From positions 9,520 through 73,519 of the forward strand of contig NZ_WIQU01000053.1 of the NCBI RefSeq assembly GCF_015732285.1: a stretch of 64,000 bases of DNA, read 5' to 3'. The notes beneath the pieces were generated by a model that did not search any database, had not been told where the DNA came from, and was given only the letters and a program-made list of their open reading frames with translations. Below are positions 9,144 to 50,042 of this stretch, piece by piece. Position 1 is the first letter of the stretch. Each line of letters opens with the position of its first letter. This DNA is from Pectinatus frisingensis (GTDB lineage Bacteria; Bacillota; Negativicutes; Selenomonadales; Selenomonadaceae). Both the position numbers and the translations under genes were made by a program.

Positions 9144-9458
9144 TTGTTTGAGGTGCCGGATAAAACAGATTATGTTGGCAATAATCCTCATTTAAGGACG
9201 GAAAAACTTACCCCGCTGACGGAAAGAATGCCGCAATTTAATCAGCAGTTGCTGGCTTTGCAAGATATTATCGGTGGGACTGATTTCACTAAATATGTGC
9301 AGAATATCCATAATATAGCGCAAAATAATAACACTTTATTAATAACTGTAGGCAATGAGCTGCAACGTATGCATGTTCAGAATATGGGGGCTGCATTGAA
9401 AAAGGTGTTTAATGTAGAACGAGTGCAGGTAATCGGGATAATGAAAACTATTTTTTAA
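9144..9458 (+). CDS. Small conserved-type protein of unknown function
   Basis: 104 aa, starting with TTG preceded by AAGGAAG at good spacing. I do not recognise the family. The sequence is charged and soluble-looking, without signal peptide or membrane segment. The second half (LLITVGNELQRMHVQN, then ALKKVFNVERVQVIG) reads as alternating strand and helix, resembling a small alpha/beta domain. It lies 16 bp after the aminotransferase and is followed immediately by a repeat element that can act as terminator, so it is probably the last gene of that unit. A ribosome-hibernation factor was considered and not supported. Confidence 0.65.
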   Translation: MFEVPDKTDYVGNNPHLRTEKLTPLTERMPQFNQQLLALQDIIGGTDFTKYVQNIHNIAQNNNTLLITVGNELQRMHVQNMGAALKKVFNVERVQVIGIMKTIF

Positions 9459-9463
9459 AACAA

Positions 9464-9599
9464 GAGCTGCCGTACGAATGGCATTGACCTCATAAAAATG
9501 CAATCTAATGCCGCTATGCGGTTTCCCGTCCTTTTGAAATGACAGGAGGAACGGAATATTGCATATTTTATGAATGAAAATGTTTATGTTCGGCAGCTC
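9464..9599 (+). repeat. Dispersed palindromic element, copy 1 (136 bp)
   Basis: Bounded by a perfect 9-bp inverted repeat, GAGCTGCCG (9464-9472) and CGGCAGCTC (9591-9599). Internal blocks shared with other copies: CATTGACCTCATAAAAATGC near the left end, CGCTATGCGG in the middle and TTTATGAATGAAAATG near the right end. The right end is followed by CTTTG, so the ends can act as terminator for the gene before it. Confidence 0.8.
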
Positions 9600-9686
9600 C
9601 TTTGTTTTATAGGGAGATAATAAATATTTGTTAAGATGATACTGTCAGTAATAATTGGCATATCTGGTTTTATATTGCCAAAAATC

Positions 9687-17414: not shown

Positions 17415-17462
17415 AAAAAAAGCTGTAATGAATTTTAATTTATTCATTACAGCTTTTTTTTA
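17415..17462. terminator. Bidirectional intrinsic terminator between csaB and galM
   Basis: AGCTGTAATGAA (17421-17432) pairs with TTCATTACAGCT (17443-17454), flanked by an A-run on the left and a T-run on the right. It can stop csaB (rightward) and galM (leftward) transcription. Confidence 0.92.
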
Positions 17463-17631
17463 CGGTGACTAGAAAGAACACTAACAGACAAATATCCTGA
17501 ATCTCATAGCTATATGAATATGTCTGAAAAATTTATTCATATTAAATTATTTGATCGCGTATACCGAACGGCAGATGCAGTGGTATGAGAGGAAAGTCTA
17601 TTTAATTAATGAATGACCTTCTACCCGAAAA

Positions 17632-19554: not shown

Positions 19555-19564
19555 AACCATTTTG

Positions 19565-19643
19565 ACTGTCACAGATACGGTATAACTTATAAATATTGCA
19601 GTATAGCAGTATGTTTGTAAGTGAATTACCTTCGTGTGACAGT
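19565..19643 (+). repeat. Short palindromic element acting as araD terminator (probable family copy, 79 bp)
   Basis: Perfect 9-bp ends ACTGTCACA (19565-19573) and TGTGACAGT (19635-19643), followed by a T7 run, 10 bp after the araD stop. In reverse orientation the left part (TGTCACACGAAGGTAATTCA) resembles the other copies loosely; membership in the family is inference. Confidence 0.6.
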
Positions 19644-19720
19644 TTTTTTATATGTATGGTAAAATATGGGCACAAATCTGTATTTATTTATTCAATGAGC
19701 AATTATATATTCGATTTAAT

Positions 19721-19856
19721 GGAGTTGGCGCACGCAGCTATTTTCATTCCTATATGCATGTTTCTGCCCCGCTGTCCGGTCCTTAGAGGGACAGGAAACC
19801 GCATAGCGATGGTGGTACCTTGAGGTTGAGGTCAATGTTGTTAACGTGACAGCCCC
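19721..19856 (-). repeat. Dispersed palindromic element, copy 2 (136 bp, reverse orientation)
   Basis: Imperfect terminal repeats GGAGTTGGCGCACG and CGTGACAGCCCC. Read on the minus strand it contains AACATTGACCTCAA, CGCTATGCGGTTTCCTGTCC and GGAATGAAAATAG, in the same order as copies 1 and 5. It lies between araD and araR. Confidence 0.72.
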
Positions 19857-20006
19857 GCATGTAAAATGGTATGCTGGAAAAATTAATTTTGGCTAATTTT
19901 GATACGGCAGTGACAACTATGCCAATATAAATGTAGACAAATTGGGATAAATCATTCATAATTACTAGAAAAGGTGGAGTTGATTATAAATGAGGCATTT
20001 GGTCGT
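19857..20006 (+). other. araR upstream region
   Basis: About 150 bp between repeat copy 2 and araR. It must hold the araR promoter; loose candidate boxes (TTGATA near 19900, AATATAAAT near 19924) do not have convincing spacing. No open frame with a ribosome site is seen. Confidence 0.35.
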
Positions 20007-21101
20007 ATGAAAAGCATACCAAAATATGTAGAATTGATGAAGTGGCTGGAATCAGCAATTATTAACGGTGACTTGGCAGCGGGTGAGCGCCTTCCGTCGG
20101 AGAATGAGCTTGGTGATAGATTTTCTATAAGCCGTCAGACTGTGCGTCAGGCAACAAGTATTTTAGAAAGCAGAGGGCTATTGGAAAGGCGTCGTGGATC
20201 CGGTACATATGTAAAGTATTCTGCTGAAAATCAAATAGCATTACCTCATTTAGTGAAAACGATTGGTGTTGTGACAACTTATCTTAATGAATATATTTTC
20301 CCGGCTATCATAAAGGGAATAGATGATATTTTAGTTGCTAATAATTATTTTGTGCAGTTGTCACTTACGTATAACAAGATGGAAAGAGAGGCTGACGTTC
20401 TTAGCAAACTATTGGCTCAAAAAGCAGAAGGATTGATTATAGAACCGGCTAAAACCGGATTGCCTAATACTAATAAAAAAATATATAGACAGATAACGCA
20501 GGCTTCAATACCGTGCGTTTTTATAAATGCATCTTATCCTGATATGGATATTCCTTGTGTTGCGATGGATGATTATGCATGCGGGCAGGCGGCAATTGAA
20601 CATTTGATAAAATGTGGTCATAAAAAAATTGGCGGATTATTTAAGCTCGACGACATGCAGGGCAGATTGAGATATGCAGGATGTGTAGATGCACTGCATA
20701 AACATCAGATGAACTTTGTTGAAAATAGTCTTATTTGGTATACTACAGAAGATAGAAATGAAGAGTTCATGCGATACTTTGGCGATAGAATTTTGAAGAT
20801 AAACAACTGCTGCACTGCTATGGTATGCTACAATGACCAAATAAGCAGGGAAATCGTACGCGTTTTGTACAGTAATGGAAAAAAAGTTCCGGAAGATATT
20901 TCTTTGGTGAGTTTTGATGATTCAAATTTTGAATTTCAAATGGAATTTGGTTTTGGTCTTACAACTTTCCGACATCCCAAAGAGGAATTGGGGCGTGTCG
21001 CAGCAAGCATGTTGCTTAAATTGATAAAGGGGGAACCCGTAAAAAATATAAAATTCCCACCTGAACTCATTGGAAGAACATCGGTAAAAAGAATAATATA
21101 A
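20007..21101 (+). CDS. araR: Arabinose operon repressor AraR (GntR-LacI hybrid type)
   Basis: Transcription repressor released by L-arabinose. An N-terminal GntR-type winged helix (about residues 5-70: GERLPSENELGDRFSISRQTVRQATSILESRGLLERRRGSGTYV) is fused to a LacI/periplasmic-binding-protein-like effector domain (IGVVTTYLNEYIFPAIIKGI to the C-terminus, with DISLVSFDDSNF). This hybrid is characteristic of AraR. The ATG at 20007 gives the expected short N-terminus; a GTG at 19974 lies in a GGTGGAG motif and would add 11 residues. Position inside the arabinose genes supports the call. Confidence 0.92.
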   Translation: MKSIPKYVELMKWLESAIINGDLAAGERLPSENELGDRFSISRQTVRQATSILESRGLLERRRGSGTYVKYSAENQIALPHLVKTIGVVTTYLNEYIFPAIIKGIDDILVANNYFVQLSLTYNKMEREADVLSKLLAQKAEGLIIEPAKTGLPNTNKKIYRQITQASIPCVFINASYPDMDIPCVAMDDYACGQAAIEHLIKCGHKKIGGLFKLDDMQGRLRYAGCVDALHKHQMNFVENSLIWYTTEDRNEEFMRYFGDRILKINNCCTAMVCYNDQISREIVRVLYSNGKKVPEDISLVSFDDSNFEFQMEFGFGLTTFRHPKEELGRVAASMLLKLIKGEPVKNIKFPPELIGRTSVKRII

Positions 21102-21106
21102 GAGAG

Positions 21107-21207
21107 CACCGTGCGTAAAAACATTTACAGATATGCAGTGATTATGGCTTTTGGGAATCTTTTTAAAAGCATAGGCTGCATTTTAGGTTAATGTTATTCG
21201 TACGGTG
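21107..21207 (-). repeat. Dispersed palindromic element, divergent copy (101 bp)
   Basis: Ends CACCGTGCG (21107-21115) and CGTACGGTG (21199-21207), followed by a T7 run six bases after the araR stop region. Read on the minus strand it has CGTACGAATAACATTAACCT and AAAATGCAG, matching the left part of copy 1 (CGTACGAATGGCATTGACCT). It probably terminates araR. Confidence 0.6.
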
Positions 21208-21301
21208 ATTTTTTTATTCCATTTGGGAAAATATAAGTGTTTGTAATAGTGGAAAAATTATTAATAATTTTTTTTATTTGCTTATTTACATAATATAGAA
21301 T

Positions 21302-24510: not shown

Positions 24511-24608
24511 CAGGCGATTGACAATAAAGGTCAGAAGATAATTAGAAATTGTAAAAAATGATATTTTCTGACTTTTATAATGTAATCCATAATGAAGGAG
24601 TGCAGAAA

Positions 24609-25976
24609 TTGGAAGGTACAAAGAAAATATCAAGTAGTTATATCTACTTTTTTGGTGCATTTGGCGGTATCCTCTTTGGATATGATATTGGTGTTATGAC
24701 CGGGGCTTTGCCATTTTTGACACATGATTGGAATTTGGTGGATGCATCGACAATCGGCTGGATAACCTCTGCCGTTATGTTTGGTGCAATATTTGGTGGT
24801 GCTTTAGCAGGACAGTTGGCTGATAGGTTAGGCCGCCGTAAAATGATTTTACTTTCAGCCGTATTGTTTGCAATTTTTGCCTTATTGTCAGGTTTAGCTC
24901 CCGACAATGGTAAAACCTATATGATTATAGTCCGCATGTTTTTAGGCTTGGGAGTTGGTGCTGCTTCAGCCCTGGTTCCGGCATATATTTCCGAGCTGGC
25001 ACCGGCACGGCTGCGTGGACGCCTTTCCGGAATCAATCAGACAATGATTGTCTCCGGGATGCTGATTTCCTATGTTGTCGATTTCTTTTTAAAGGATATG
25101 CCAGGAGAAATGTCATGGAGATTGATGCTGGGATTTGCCTGTTTGCCCGCAGTCATCTTATTTTTAGGTGTTTTGCGTTTACCTGAATCACCACGTTATT
25201 TGATAAAGAATGGACATTATGATGAAGCCAGAAAAGTATTGGGCTATGTTCGTCCAGAGAATGAAATTGATGCCGAACTTAAGGATATTAAAGAAACTGC
25301 CGCATTGGAAAATCAAGCTGAAAATCAAACCAGCTGGGGCAGTCTGCTAAGTAAAAAATATCGCTATTTGATCACGGCTGGTGTCGGTGTGGCAGCTTTT
25401 CAACAATTTCAAGGAGCTAATGCTATTTTTTATTATATTCCATTGATTGTGGAAAAAGCGACTGGCAGTGCAGCAACCAACGAACTAATGTGGCCAATTA
25501 TTCAGGGTATAATACTTGTTCTGGGTTCACTGGTATATATCTGGATTGCAGAAAAATTTAACAGGCGGACACTTCTGATGGTTGCCGGATTCATCATGGG
25601 GCTATCATTTATTTTGCCGGCTGTTATTAATTGGCTTATACCGGGAGCCAGCCCAATGATGATTGTATTTTTCTTGTGTATATATGTTGCCTTTTATTCG
25701 GCTACATGGGCACCAATTACCTGGGTATTAGTGGGAGAAATATTTCCATTGGCAGTTCGCGGCCGTGCGGCTGGTCTGGCTTCGTCCTTCAATTGGATCG
25801 GTTCATGGCTAGTCGGGTTATTATTCCCTATTATGACGGCAGCTATGCCGCAGGAAGCGGTATTTGCTATCTTTGGTGTTATTTGTATGCTGGGGTGTTT
25901 ATTTGTAAAGACGCGCGTACCTGAAACACGCGGCCGTACATTGGAAGAGATTGAACGCCAGGAAACAAATAAGTAA
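24609..25976 (+). CDS. araE: Sugar porter MFS transporter, probable L-arabinose importer
   Basis: Proton-coupled sugar symporter of the major facilitator superfamily in the inner membrane. About twelve membrane segments; signatures GQLADRLGRRKMI (loop 2-3), PESPRYLIKNG (end of first half), QQFQGANAIFYY (sugar-binding helix 7) and VPETRGRTLEEIE at the C-terminus. 455 aa is typical. The TTG at 24609 is chosen because GAAGGAG lies 8 bp upstream; the frame could extend to 24558. The position directly after araA supports arabinose as substrate, although xylose or galactose porters look alike. Confidence 0.9.
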   Translation: MEGTKKISSSYIYFFGAFGGILFGYDIGVMTGALPFLTHDWNLVDASTIGWITSAVMFGAIFGGALAGQLADRLGRRKMILLSAVLFAIFALLSGLAPDNGKTYMIIVRMFLGLGVGAASALVPAYISELAPARLRGRLSGINQTMIVSGMLISYVVDFFLKDMPGEMSWRLMLGFACLPAVILFLGVLRLPESPRYLIKNGHYDEARKVLGYVRPENEIDAELKDIKETAALENQAENQTSWGSLLSKKYRYLITAGVGVAAFQQFQGANAIFYYIPLIVEKATGSAATNELMWPIIQGIILVLGSLVYIWIAEKFNRRTLLMVAGFIMGLSFILPAVINWLIPGASPMMIVFFLCIYVAFYSATWAPITWVLVGEIFPLAVRGRAAGLASSFNWIGSWLVGLLFPIMTAAMPQEAVFAIFGVICMLGCLFVKTRVPETRGRTLEEIERQETNK

Positions 25977-25993
25977 GCTGTTAAACAATTAAC

Positions 25994-26070
25994 GGGGCTG
26001 CCGCATGAACAGCATTGACATCATAAATATGTAATACTTATGAATGAAAATGATTACGTGCGACAACCCC
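25994..26070 (+). repeat. Dispersed palindromic element, internally deleted copy (77 bp)
   Basis: Ends GGGGCTGCCGCA and TGCGACAACCCC. It keeps both conserved flanks (AGCATTGACATCATAAATATG and TTATGAATGAAAATGATTACG) but lacks the central 55 bp of the long copies. It lies 17 bp after the araE stop. Confidence 0.8.
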
Positions 26071-26198
26071 ATTAATTTTAGATATGAATGTTAGGAATAA
26101 ACATATAAAACGGATGGTACCGGAAAACATATGCTAAATGTCGTTTTGTGTATCAATATACATGACTAAAAAAATCGGTCATGTTATATAAAGATAGA

Positions 26199-26540: not shown

Positions 26541-26891
26541 TGTAGAACAATACCTCTTTTTCTATAGCAGCTATTGATTAGATTTACTTGTATAAAACTA
26601 TATCCATTCTATCAAAAAAATGCTTATAAAACAACTTAATATAAAAGATTGCTACCTGTCAAGTCTTGCACGGCATATTTATTTATGCTATTATTTATTA
26701 AAAGATTACATATGCCTGCGATGTACGTAAGCTTTTTAAATATGTCTAACCTTACTCTTTTCAAAATGGAACCTGATTTTAGCATATAGCTGCTGGATCG
26801 TCTTGAACGAATAGCAAACGTATTGTCTTAAAGGTACCGCCCTGCATATATGCAGGTATAGGCATGTAAAAAGATACGGCACCATGGGCAT
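26541..26891. other. Intergenic region without recognised gene
   Basis: About 350 AT-rich bases upstream of the unknown gene. A small hairpin CCTGCATATATGCAGG lies near 26843, between weakly complementary GGTACCG and CGGCACC. The promoter of the leftward unknown gene should be near 26560-26640. No open frame with a ribosome site is seen. Confidence 0.35.
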
Positions 26892-26925
26892 AAAAAACCG
26901 CCATTCTTATGAATGGTGGTTTTTT
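26892..26925. terminator. Bidirectional intrinsic terminator after putP
   Basis: ACCGCCATTC (26897-26906) pairs with GAATGGTGGT (26911-26920) across TTAT, with an A-run on the left and a T-run on the right. On the minus strand it ends putP transcription. Confidence 0.9.
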
Positions 26926-33975: not shown

Positions 33976-34093
33976 AGTTAACAATGATCAGTTATCTTTG
34001 GGCATTAATATTGAACAATATCAAATATTATTGTAAAATCGACAATTAACCAATGAATTTTTCAGCGTAGAAAAATTATGCTGATAACAAAAA

Positions 34094-34218
34094 GACTGCC
34101 CCACATAGGCATTTCCATTCATAAATATGCTGCAATATTTCCCTTACCTTGTTCGTCACCGAATAGTCAGGATAGTGGCAGCAGTGGTTATGAATTCAAT
34201 GTCGTCTGTGCGACAGTC
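34094..34218 (-). repeat. Dispersed palindromic element (125 bp) between convergent genes
   Basis: Ends GACTGCCCCACA and TGTGCGACAGTC; T-runs outside both ends let it terminate both the PucR gene and the alcohol dehydrogenase operon. On the minus strand it reads CATTGAATTCATAA near the left end and TTTATGAATGGAAATG near the right end, as in other copies. The remaining bases of the 300-bp gap hold no gene. Confidence 0.75.
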
Positions 34219-34275
34219 ATTTTTGTTATTTAATATAGTCAGGCTTGATTGGCGCAATGCAAAATGGAGTATATA

Positions 34276-45831: not shown

Positions 45832-45949
45832 ATAATCACATCCTAAATATTATTGTGATTTGATAATACAACGATATAAGCTATTGGTAAAGTAATTACC
45901 TTTTTAATACTTACTTACCGATACTATATTATAAAGAAAATAAAAAAAA

Positions 45950-46081
45950 GCTGTCGCATGAACAGCATTGACCTCATAAAAATGCAATTCACCACTGCAT
46001 AGCGGCTCCCCGCTTTTTAAAAGTGGACAAAGAAAGTGAAGTATTACATATTTATGAATGAAAATGGATACGTGCGACAAC
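45950..46081 (+). repeat. Dispersed palindromic element (132 bp), HU terminator
   Basis: Ends GCTGTCGCA (45950-45958) and TGCGACAAC (46073-46081). Internal blocks AGCATTGACCTCATAAAAATGCAAT, CATAGCGGCTCCCCG and TTTATGAATGAAAATGG match copy 1. On the minus strand, leaving HU, the left end is followed by a T7-8 run, a good intrinsic terminator. Confidence 0.85.
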
Positions 46082-46103
46082 CCTTTTTGGTATGGAATGT
46101 TAA

Positions 46104-46406
46104 TTATTTTTTTGCTTTTTTTCTTTTTGGGGCAACATTCATTTTTTCTTTAAGGTTCTTACCAATTTTAAAAGTTGCAGTTTTTGATGCAGGAATCTTG
46201 ATTTCGGCACCAGTCTGAGGATTGCGGCCTTTTCTTGCCGCGCGTGTCTTTGCTTCGAATGTTCCGAAACCGATGAGCTGTACATTGTTACCGCTGACAA
46301 GTGATTCGCTAATTGCTGCGAAAACGGCAGTTACTGCTAATTCAGCATCTTTTTTGGTGGTATCCATTTTCTGAGCCACTTCAGTGATCAATTCTGTTTT
46401 GTTCAT
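46104..46406 (-). CDS. hup: HU family DNA-binding protein
   Basis: 100 aa nucleoid protein that bends DNA as a dimer. [60 protein letters not shown]: the GFGTF and RxGRNPQTG arm signature are intact. A lysine-rich tail of ten residues (PKRKKAKK) extends the usual 90 aa. AAAGGACAGGG precedes the ATG. It stands alone, followed by the repeat element used as terminator. Confidence 0.96.
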
Positions 46407-47237: not shown

Positions 47238-49019
47238 TTAATTATCAGCGTGCTGTAATGGGAATTTTATTGTAAATGTGGTTCCCTGTCTTGGTTCACT
47301 GGCAACAAATATTTTGCCGTCGAATAGTTCCACAAGAAACCGTACTAATGAAAGACCAATGCCTGAACCTCCGATATCCTGGCGTACACGAGATTTGTCA
47401 CTACGGTAAAACCGATCGAAAATAAATGGAAGTTCTGATTTATCAATGCCTATACCGGTATCTTTTATGGTAAATACGGCAGTGTTTTTTTCGATTTTAC
47501 AGGAAAGATAAATGTTTCCCGCAATTGGAGTATATTTTATTGCATTTTCCATCAAATTGATAAAGATCTGTGCAAATAGATCAGGATTAGCTTTTATCAA
47601 TATTGTTTTGTCAGGAAAATCTGTATTCAAATGTTGTTGTTTTTTTCCTAATAATGGAGTCATAGTTTTGCCGGCCTTAGCTAAAGCAGTCAGACTGTCG
47701 ATATTAGTTGTGACAATTTGTTTTCGATAGTCATGGCTGTTTAATTTTGCCAGTTGCAGCAGATTTTTTACCAGATATTGCATACGACAGCTTTCATCAT
47801 AAATAATTTTTAGAAAATGCTGCGTTGTTTCACTGCTGTTTGAATTTTCGTCAAGCAGAGTTTCACTGAATCCTTTTATTGAAGTGAGCGGTGTTGAAAG
47901 CTCATGAGCAGCATTGGCAACAAAACTATTCTGTCGGTCGGTTATTTCCTGCAGCAATGATATATCATGGAAAACACAAACAATATTTTGTCGGTCTTCT
48001 ATGGCAAATGGGGCAAAAAAAGCAATAAATGTTTTTTCAGTAATACCTAGCCTGATTCGGAAAGTGGTTTTCTTATTTTGGTTTTCACGGGCACAATTTT
48101 TAGCGGTATCACTGATGATGGTACTGCCGATACAATTGATGCTGTAAGTATTTATGATGTCTGATGTTATGGCAAAAGTTTTTTGAGCTTGTTTATTAGC
48201 CTGAATAATGAGACCTTTTTCATTTAATAAAATCACGGCATTATCCATATTGTCGAGAATCAGGGACAAAGTATGGGCTTTTGCTTGAGAATCATTAATT
48301 TTGCGAAGCAGTCGACTGGTAAGTTTATTTATTGTGACTGCGAGGAATTCTAATTCGTCACCGGTTGTGATATGCAGCCGGGTATTTAAATCACCATTGA
48401 TTATTTTTTGGGCGTCATTGGTCATTTGTTTTATTGGTTGAATAAAGCGGCGGGTTAAAAATACACCGATACTGATAGCAGCAATGGTGACAATTAAAAA
48501 TATGAATAAGATATTATTTTTCATGTCATTATAAGATTTTTCCAAAGGTGCAATACTCATAGCCGTCCGGCATACCCCAACTAATACACCCTTATTGTAG
48601 ACAGGAATAGCGACATAAAGAAGATTTTTCTGCAAAGTCTGGCTGAAACGTATGGAAGAACCGAGTCCGGTATTTAGTGCGTCTTGTATTTCAGTGCGGT
48701 CTTCATGATTGTCCATTGATTCGATATCATAAGAAGAATCATATATAACAGTGCCAATGCTGTTTATCAGGGTGATGCGCAGGCCTGTGTCATCACTGAC
48801 TGAATGCAGTAAAGCGACACCATCATCGTCAGGATCGGTAAAGTATTTTTGTGAAATGTCGGCAATAGTTTTGGCTTGATTTTCTAAAGAAGTAGTTCTG
48901 TCTGTGATATTTATTTGATAGAAATAATTGACAATATAGATACTGCAAATCAACAGAGGTAAAATTACTAATACCAGTGAATAAAGTGTAAGCCGCCGGC
49001 TGATACTTGATTTTAGCAT
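47238..49019 (-). CDS. phoR: Sensor histidine kinase (PhoR-like)
   Basis: 593 aa inner-membrane kinase. Order: N-terminal membrane segment (about 12-31), extracytoplasmic Cache-like sensor, second membrane segment (about 170-190), HAMP linker (FIQPIKQMTNDAQKIINGDLNTRL), PAS domain (SLILDNMDNAVILLNEKG), HisKA with phospho-acceptor His in AHELSTPLTSIKG, and HATPase with N box NLMENAIKY, DTGIGID and GGSGIGLSLV. PhoR identity follows from the PAS domain and the phosphate locus, although a repeat element and over 5 kb separate it from phoB. It is probably transcribed from its own promoter. Confidence 0.87.
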   Translation of the reverse strand: MLKSSISRRLTLYSLVLVILPLLICSIYIVNYFYQINITDRTTSLENQAKTIADISQKYFTDPDDDGVALLHSVSDDTGLRITLINSIGTVIYDSSYDIESMDNHEDRTEIQDALNTGLGSSIRFSQTLQKNLLYVAIPVYNKGVLVGVCRTAMSIAPLEKSYNDMKNNILFIFLIVTIAAISIGVFLTRRFIQPIKQMTNDAQKIINGDLNTRLHITTGDELEFLAVTINKLTSRLLRKINDSQAKAHTLSLILDNMDNAVILLNEKGLIIQANKQAQKTFAITSDIINTYSINCIGSTIISDTAKNCARENQNKKTTFRIRLGITEKTFIAFFAPFAIEDRQNIVCVFHDISLLQEITDRQNSFVANAAHELSTPLTSIKGFSETLLDENSNSSETTQHFLKIIYDESCRMQYLVKNLLQLAKLNSHDYRKQIVTTNIDSLTALAKAGKTMTPLLGKKQQHLNTDFPDKTILIKANPDLFAQIFINLMENAIKYTPIAGNIYLSCKIEKNTAVFTIKDTGIGIDKSELPFIFDRFYRSDKSRVRQDIGGSGIGLSLVRFLVELFDGKIFVASEPRQGTTFTIKFPLQHADN

Positions 49020-49190: not shown

Positions 49191-49232
49191 TGGTTGGAAC
49201 AATACAGATAGATAATATTTTCATAAAAAAAA

Positions 49233-49362
49233 AGCTGCCACATGCAGGTGTTTTCATTCATAAGCATACACTATCCCGTTGACTTTATCCCCTTTGGCAG
49301 GGGATAACCGTATAACGGCGGCAGCAGTATCTGATGAGGTTAATACCCTTCATGCGACAGCT
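49233..49362 (-). repeat. Dispersed palindromic element (130 bp) inside the pho gene row
   Basis: Ends AGCTGCCACATG and CATGCGACAGCT. On the minus strand it reads GTCGCATGAAGGGTATTAACCTCAT near the left end and TTATGAATGAAAACAC near the right end, then a T9 run: a terminator between phoU and the kinase gene. Confidence 0.8.
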
Positions 49363-49382
49363 CCTTGCACTGAAGATAACGG

Positions 49383-50042
49383 TTATTTGATTTTTTTTGT
49401 TTTGCGGATGCGTTCGGCCGTTTCGAGATAAATGACCCATTCAGCAATATTTGTAGCATGATCACCAATTCTTTCCAAATAACGTGAGATGAATACCAGT
49501 TCCGGTAGTGATTCAACACTGGTATAATTTGATATTTCAGTCAGAGTTTTGGCAAAAAGTGAATCAGCATTATCATCCTCATGACAAACCTGTTCGGCCA
49601 GACTAACATCACCATCTTTATAAGCTTGGATCGACATGTTGATCATCGTGACGGCACAATCAGATAATTCTTTTATGTAAGATTTATTGAAATTAAAAGG
49701 CTTTTTTAAATTACTGGTGATTCTGGCTATGTCAAAAGCATGATCACCAATACGTTCCAAGTCAGTGGATATTTTAAAGGAGGTGGCTATTATTCGTAAA
49801 TCGTGAGCTATAGGCTGCTGTTTAGCAATCAGCAGTATGCAGGAATCTTCAATATCAATAAGTAATTTGTCGATTATGTCATCGTTGTTCATTACCTGGG
49901 CAGCAAGATCCTTGTCAAAATTCAATAACGCCTTAATTGAATCCCGAGCCGCTGCTGAGGCTGTCGTTCCCATATCGACTATTTTTTTTTGTATTTTTAG
50001 TAAATCTTCGGTATAGGCTTTGCGTGTCATTTGTTGATCCAT
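49383..50042 (-). CDS. phoU: Phosphate-specific transport regulator PhoU
   Basis: 219 aa, two similar three-helix bundles. Each carries the metal-cluster motif: DLERIGDHAFDIA (about residue 94) and YLERIGDHATNIAE (about 190). PhoU links PstB activity to the PhoR kinase so that signalling is off when phosphate is plentiful (established role). It lies 16 bp after pstB and is followed by the repeat element, probably the operon end. Confidence 0.96.
   Translation of the reverse strand: MDQQMTRKAYTEDLLKIQKKIVDMGTTASAAARDSIKALLNFDKDLAAQVMNNDDIIDKLLIDIEDSCILLIAKQQPIAHDLRIIATSFKISTDLERIGDHAFDIARITSNLKKPFNFNKSYIKELSDCAVTMINMSIQAYKDGDVSLAEQVCHEDDNADSLFAKTLTEISNYTSVESLPELVFISRYLERIGDHATNIAEWVIYLETAERIRKTKKIK

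Follow-up and report, generated by a model that had tools for sequence, protein, structure and literature searches.

The closest known analogue of the repeat family described here is the pneumococcal SPRITE, the likeness being one of behaviour, taken from its description and not from its sequence. SPRITE is present in approximately 30 copies and consists of an 18-bp duplex with AAAA/TTTT ends and a T-rich tail; its function as a terminator has been proposed, but not demonstrated. Other small palindromic repeats include (i) the ERIC/IRU/RU-1 elements of enterobacteria, intergenic palindromes of 127 bp with TA termini, which form a single long hairpin when transcribed, occur in shortened forms in Yersinia, generate target duplications and are described as orientation-dependent mRNA stability elements, (ii) the Correia/NEMIS, RUP, RPE and YPAL elements, which are dispersed and mostly intergenic, in most cases have target duplications and, in the case of RUP, a matching IS, and (iii) the DUS/USS terminators of Neisseria and the Pasteurellaceae, in which a stem sequence recurs.

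We analysed a window of 64 kb of the Pectinatus frisingensis genome (G000) and identified a dispersed palindromic repeat of approximately 140 bp per copy, of which the genome contains approximately 100 diverged copies. Like SPRITE, it is terminator-like, located near gene 3′ ends and over-represented in convergent spaces, has neither a demonstrable target duplication nor an IS with the same ends, and is found in fewer copies in a sister species and hardly at all elsewhere. It differs from SPRITE in its copy number and length, in its ends (GGGGCTGTCGCAC), in having two conserved inner blocks and in the presence of T-runs on both sides, and no common sequence was recognised. ERIC, NEMIS and REPIN fit less well. 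Judging from the published descriptions, the repeat differs from ERIC in the lack of duplications, the use of both orientations and its terminator signature, and from the Correia/NEMIS, RUP, RPE and YPAL group in having neither target duplications nor a matching IS. As in the DUS/USS terminators, a stem sequence recurs, but here no short uptake word makes up the unit, and single words are not in excess. No Rfam family matched the repeat, no copies were found in collections of phage, plasmid and viral sequences, and a literature search of incomplete coverage yielded no paper on it, in agreement with the first-pass annotation, which had recognised no published family. The family appears to be undescribed so far.

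Structure and copy number of the repeat

Each copy constitutes a long hairpin, whose GC-rich end stem has the consensus GGGGCTGTCGCAC...GTGCGACAGCCCC and is flanked by A-rich/T-rich sequences. The consensus of the aligned elements begins with AAGGGGCTGTCGCACGAACnGCATTGACCTCATAAAnATGCAA, continues with a variable centre, frequently containing CCGCTATGCGG and CTTTTAAAnGCGGA, and ends with TTGCATATTTATGAATGAAAATGnTTATGTGCGACAGCCCCTT. With terminal inverted repeats, no transposase gene and a size below approximately 200 bp, the elements have the form of a MITE. Inspection of the flanks placed the element ends at the limit of pairing. Insertion into the loop of an older terminator, whose outer arms would be left over, was therefore rejected, since there is no pairing past these ends.

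A blastn search with the copy at 9464-9599 as the query revealed 41 places in the genome, 40 of which were examined together with their flanks. A covariance model was built from an alignment of 33 blastn-found copies and 4 window copies; as this alignment includes window copies, the independent evidence consists of the single-copy blastn search (41 places) and the 52 copies that the model detected in the congener G004. In the draft genome of P. frisingensis (2.92 Mb), the model gave 132 matches at E<0.01, which correspond to 100 distinct loci, the palindromic nature of the element allowing it to be matched on both strands. The "hundreds in the genome" anticipated from the window alone were thus an overestimate. 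The conserved blocks had been read correctly: the genome contains 28 exact occurrences of the full right block, always within an element, and with one mismatch allowed it gave 60 matches (57 within elements), compared with 2 for the reversed control.

Copies within the window

The covariance model matched all six copies considered clear in the first-pass annotation (E ≤9e-17 within the window), with ends differing by a few bases. Of the two considered probable, that at 21107-21207 was supported (E 6e-5), while that at 19565-19643 is borderline (E 0.007). The occurrence of the copies in both orientations and between genes also held, as did the folding of the clear copies, with the exception of 19721-19856, whose plus strand folds no better than shuffled sequences (z +1.1); the fold z of the other seven window sequences ranges from -3.4 to -7.4.

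The full-length element at 9461..9602 (plus strand; model R1, 135.7 bits, E 2e-29; fold z -7.4) is located between the gene ending at 9458, whose stop codon it follows at a distance of 2 bp, and secA, which is downstream of it. Two sequences follow araD: 19560..19648 (plus strand; 21.2 bits, E 0.0068; fold z -5.9), which is either a short element or an unrelated terminator, and a full-length element at 19719..19858 (minus strand; 81.2 bits, E 9e-17), located 164 bp downstream of araD, with weak T-runs on both sides (3 and 3 T of 8). A diverged element at 21100..21214 (minus strand; 30 bits, E 6e-5; fold z -7.1) directly follows the gene ending at 21101. The element at 25992..26072 (plus strand; 90.7 bits, E 6e-19; fold z -4.7), 15 bp past a sugar porter gene, is a short form (81 bp) without the central part. 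A full-length element at 34090..34222 (minus strand; 86.5 bits, E 5e-18; fold z -5.0) is enclosed by a convergent gene pair. The remaining two, also of full length, each follow a minus-strand gene: 45945..46086 (plus strand; 142.9 bits, E 5e-31; fold z -3.4) is 17 bp past the stop codon of 46104-46406, and 49229..49366 (minus strand; 97.8 bits, E 1e-20) is 16 bp past that of 49383-50042 and, with respect to the minus strand, just upstream of the sensor kinase gene 47238-49019.

Several other features of the window were noted. The sugar porter encoded at 24558-25976 shares 67% identity with one on a 760-kb record of Limosilactobacillus fermentum, the runner-up sharing 40%, and its acquisition by lateral transfer is possible. 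A 6S RNA gene is located at 26710-26894 (Rfam RF00013, 55 bits). At 17477-17628, shortly after an intrinsic terminator at approximately 17419-17461, a group II intron is represented by its decayed 3′ end, with a domain V-like sequence (named by eye). This remnant has 11 equal-scoring matches in G004, and the one examined (L093) is preceded by the end of an intron reverse transcriptase/maturase (named by eye). Class C introns habitually target terminators, and the position of the remnant fits this preference.

Location relative to genes

Genes were predicted with a home-made codon-scored ORF caller (coding fraction 0.83), and not taken from a curated annotation. Of the 83 best copies of P. frisingensis, 43 lie in convergent spaces, 38 in co-directional and 2 in divergent ones; 81 of the 83 are flanked on one or both sides by a gene 3′ end, with a median of 16 bp to the nearest stop codon. 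Sixty-nine of the 83 lie within 60 bp of a stop codon, 39 on the same strand as the gene and 30 on the opposite one. All 44 copies analysed in G004 are located beside a gene 3′ end (median 15 bp), in 21 convergent, 23 co-directional and no divergent spaces. Convergent spaces are enriched in both genomes (43/83 copies vs 29/188 other spaces, p 1e-9, in P. frisingensis; p 6e-7 in G004) and divergent spaces are avoided (p 2e-7 and p 2e-5, respectively). The family is thus dispersed and enriched beside gene 3′ ends and in convergent spaces, as defines a SPRITE-like terminator repeat.

Evidence for terminator function

The copies are very probably members of an old dispersed family that now act as intrinsic, often bidirectional, transcription terminators. 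They provide a GC-rich hairpin followed by a U-tract, placed after a gene, and a terminator function is well supported by several features of their sequences. The end stem covaries: 156 alignment cells are altered on both sides in P. frisingensis vs 73 in shuffles, and 108 vs 44 in G004, values that none of 500 shuffles reached in either species. In co-directional contexts of P. frisingensis, the T-run amounts to 5.87 of 8 on the used side vs 4.81 of 8 on the other (p 0.008; 6.19 vs 4.89, p 0.001, when the first gene caller was used), while in convergent contexts both sides are equal; in G004 the asymmetry has the same direction (p 0.09). Poor T-runs were observed in the element 19719-19858 and in several other copies whose distance from a stop codon exceeds 100 bp.

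The type of wobble in the stems is also informative. G.U is tolerated in RNA and A.C is not, and since the two are mutual complements, the wobble type reveals the strand of the selected RNA. Read as gene-sense RNA, the stems of co-directional copies contain 124 G.U vs 62 A.C, and both species agree. Permutation of the strand labels among copies within 100 bp of a stop codon gave p 1.5e-4; copies were permuted rather than cells because the latter are not independent. In convergent contexts the bias is weak (p 0.12), as expected. At the sequence level, wobble type and U-tract side show the RNA of the neighbouring gene to be under selection. As both track the transcribed strand, they provide clear sequence evidence for the maintenance of a dispersed repeat in the role of an RNA terminator, and the approach constitutes a simple strand test applicable to other repeat families.

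The same gene ends were compared in the congeners G001-G004, whose genes share approximately 70-80% nucleotide identity with those of P. frisingensis. At the sites 9464, 19565, 21107 and 49233, unrelated short terminators or hairpins are present after the same gene and at the same position in 4, 2, 2 and 4 comparable congeners, respectively: other short terminators in G001-G004 at the 9464 site and in G001 and G002 at the 21107 site, and short terminators or short hairpins in all four at the 49233 site. Among 23 assessable gene ends of G004, there are 3 listed elements, 2-3 apparent diverged copies and approximately 8 short terminators, the last two counts being made partly by eye. Between congeneric species, repeats and ordinary terminators replace each other at a given gene end. 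Nine gene ends carry a copy in both P. frisingensis and G004, with opposite model-called orientations in four cases; 2-3 would be expected by chance, a rough figure that assumes 1300 gene ends, 60% of them shared. At one of the shared sites, the copy is a mini-element of 60 bp, in which changes in one arm are matched in the other. The suggestion that the repeats had been tamed as terminators is borne out by these substitutions and by the U-tract asymmetry, wobble bias and covariation.

Some features count against a function as intrinsic terminators: the poor T-runs of some copies, the strong conservation of the inner blocks (see below) and the hairpin itself, which, at approximately 65 bp and interrupted by internal loops, is unusual for such a terminator. 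The polymerase would transcribe the hairpin, nested inner stems would draw both arms of the end stem together, and the end stem together with the U-tract would release the transcript; between convergent genes, one element would serve both. The hairpin may additionally protect mRNA 3′ ends.

Distribution in related genomes and possible mobility

Besides the approximately 100 copies of P. frisingensis, the covariance model detected 52 in the congener G004 and none in G001-G003 at E<0.001. With a broader model, G003 gave a long sequence that may be a copy (L188, E 1.5e-4) besides a weaker match of 135 nt (E 0.004), G001 only 42-nt hairpins, and G002 a single one of 47 nt. In a family-wide search of 189 genomes, E<1e-6 was reached, apart from P. 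frisingensis and G004, by G192 alone. G192, G193 and G018, which represent two other genera of the family, contain 1-2 long hairpins each that resemble the element, sharing its ends and having inner arms related to those of the element. For 36 of 41 G004 copies the closest relative is a P. frisingensis copy, and a species-specific burst was therefore rejected for G004. Three of the G004 copies are located on a separate 67-kb contig. The region C1:1-300000 of G004, near the replication terminus as judged from GC skew, is devoid of copies across 300 kb (Poisson p 0.003). The copies L033:2495-2617 of P. frisingensis and L169:13467-13597 of G004 are both located just upstream of the same PII-like gene (nifI-type, by eye).

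It is possible, though less likely than the reading above, that the repeat is a MITE, i.e. a non-autonomous element mobilised by a transposase acting in trans, with a preference for gene ends and an incidental terminator function. The terminal inverted repeats, size and dispersal agree with this, as do the presence/absence differences among congeners and the copies on the separate G004 contig. However, no consistent target-site duplication was found among the copies, although old copies could have lost such duplications; the right block is never isolated, so the one draft genome searched gives no sign of an autonomous element, and the two remnants of PF13751 (DDE) transposases in it lack matching ends. 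There are no recent copies, as no pair exceeds 82% identity, and the sense-strand wobble bias would not be expected of a purely parasitic element. The MITE- or REP-like mobility put forward in the first-pass annotation was thus not substantiated. If the copies are instead old repeats retained as terminators, they would have been dispersed before most of their present divergence, replacing ordinary terminators.

Conserved inner blocks

In both species, conservation is higher in the inner blocks (mean pairwise identity 0.72-0.82) than in the centre (0.45-0.53). That of the blocks exceeds the needs of termination alone, making a bound factor a possible candidate; the blocks may be either relics of the agent that moved the repeat or a binding site. 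It seems unlikely that the blocks, together with the asymmetric internal loop, make up an RNA element bound by a protein or ligand, a putative factor modulating termination or 3′-end stability of approximately 100 transcripts. Conservation of the blocks, and not of the centre, extends over two species and, in part, to two further genera (G018 and G192/G193), and the paired bases within the blocks are nearly invariant while the end stem covaries freely; on the other hand, no such factor is known, and the conservation could be a relic of earlier mobility. A wider and more doubtful proposal is that CATTGACC-TCATAAAnATGCA and TTGCATATTTATGAATGAAAATG constitute a recognition element, in RNA or DNA, at approximately 100 gene ends, whose binding by a putative factor would create factor-tunable or specially protected terminators.

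REP-like repeats, uptake sequences and short hairpins

It is very unlikely that the family is a REP/REPIN-type repeat mobilised by a RAYT (Y1 tyrosine transposase). The paired inverted motifs within a hairpin and the extragenic location are shared with REPINs, but the right block does not occur singly, P. frisingensis yielded one partial Y1 match (57-121 of 121) and no full-length RAYT, and four Y1 matches in G004 compare with 52 copies. One G004 copy, L152:1801-1939 (C1:719958-720096), adjoins an IS605-type tnpA/tnpB pair.

DNA uptake sequences, forming terminators as inverted pairs as in Neisseria and the Pasteurellaceae, are a scarcely credible explanation. The stem GCTGYCRCA does recur in short hairpins (GCTGYCRCA..TGYGRCAGC) in 53 of 150 genomes of the class, compared with only a few genomes for the reversed control. 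Nevertheless, the reading was rejected because the single word GCTGTCGCA is not enriched outside elements (3 occurrences in 504 kb vs 0-3 in shuffles); uptake signals usually have at least 1000 occurrences per genome (PMC1852404). Integron attC-like sites were considered and dropped, as the copies are scattered, in both orientations, after ordinary genes.

The genome G058 contains 11 matches of one 43-bp version of the short hairpin, several of them close to contig ends, which suggests that this version is a repeat or the end of an IS.
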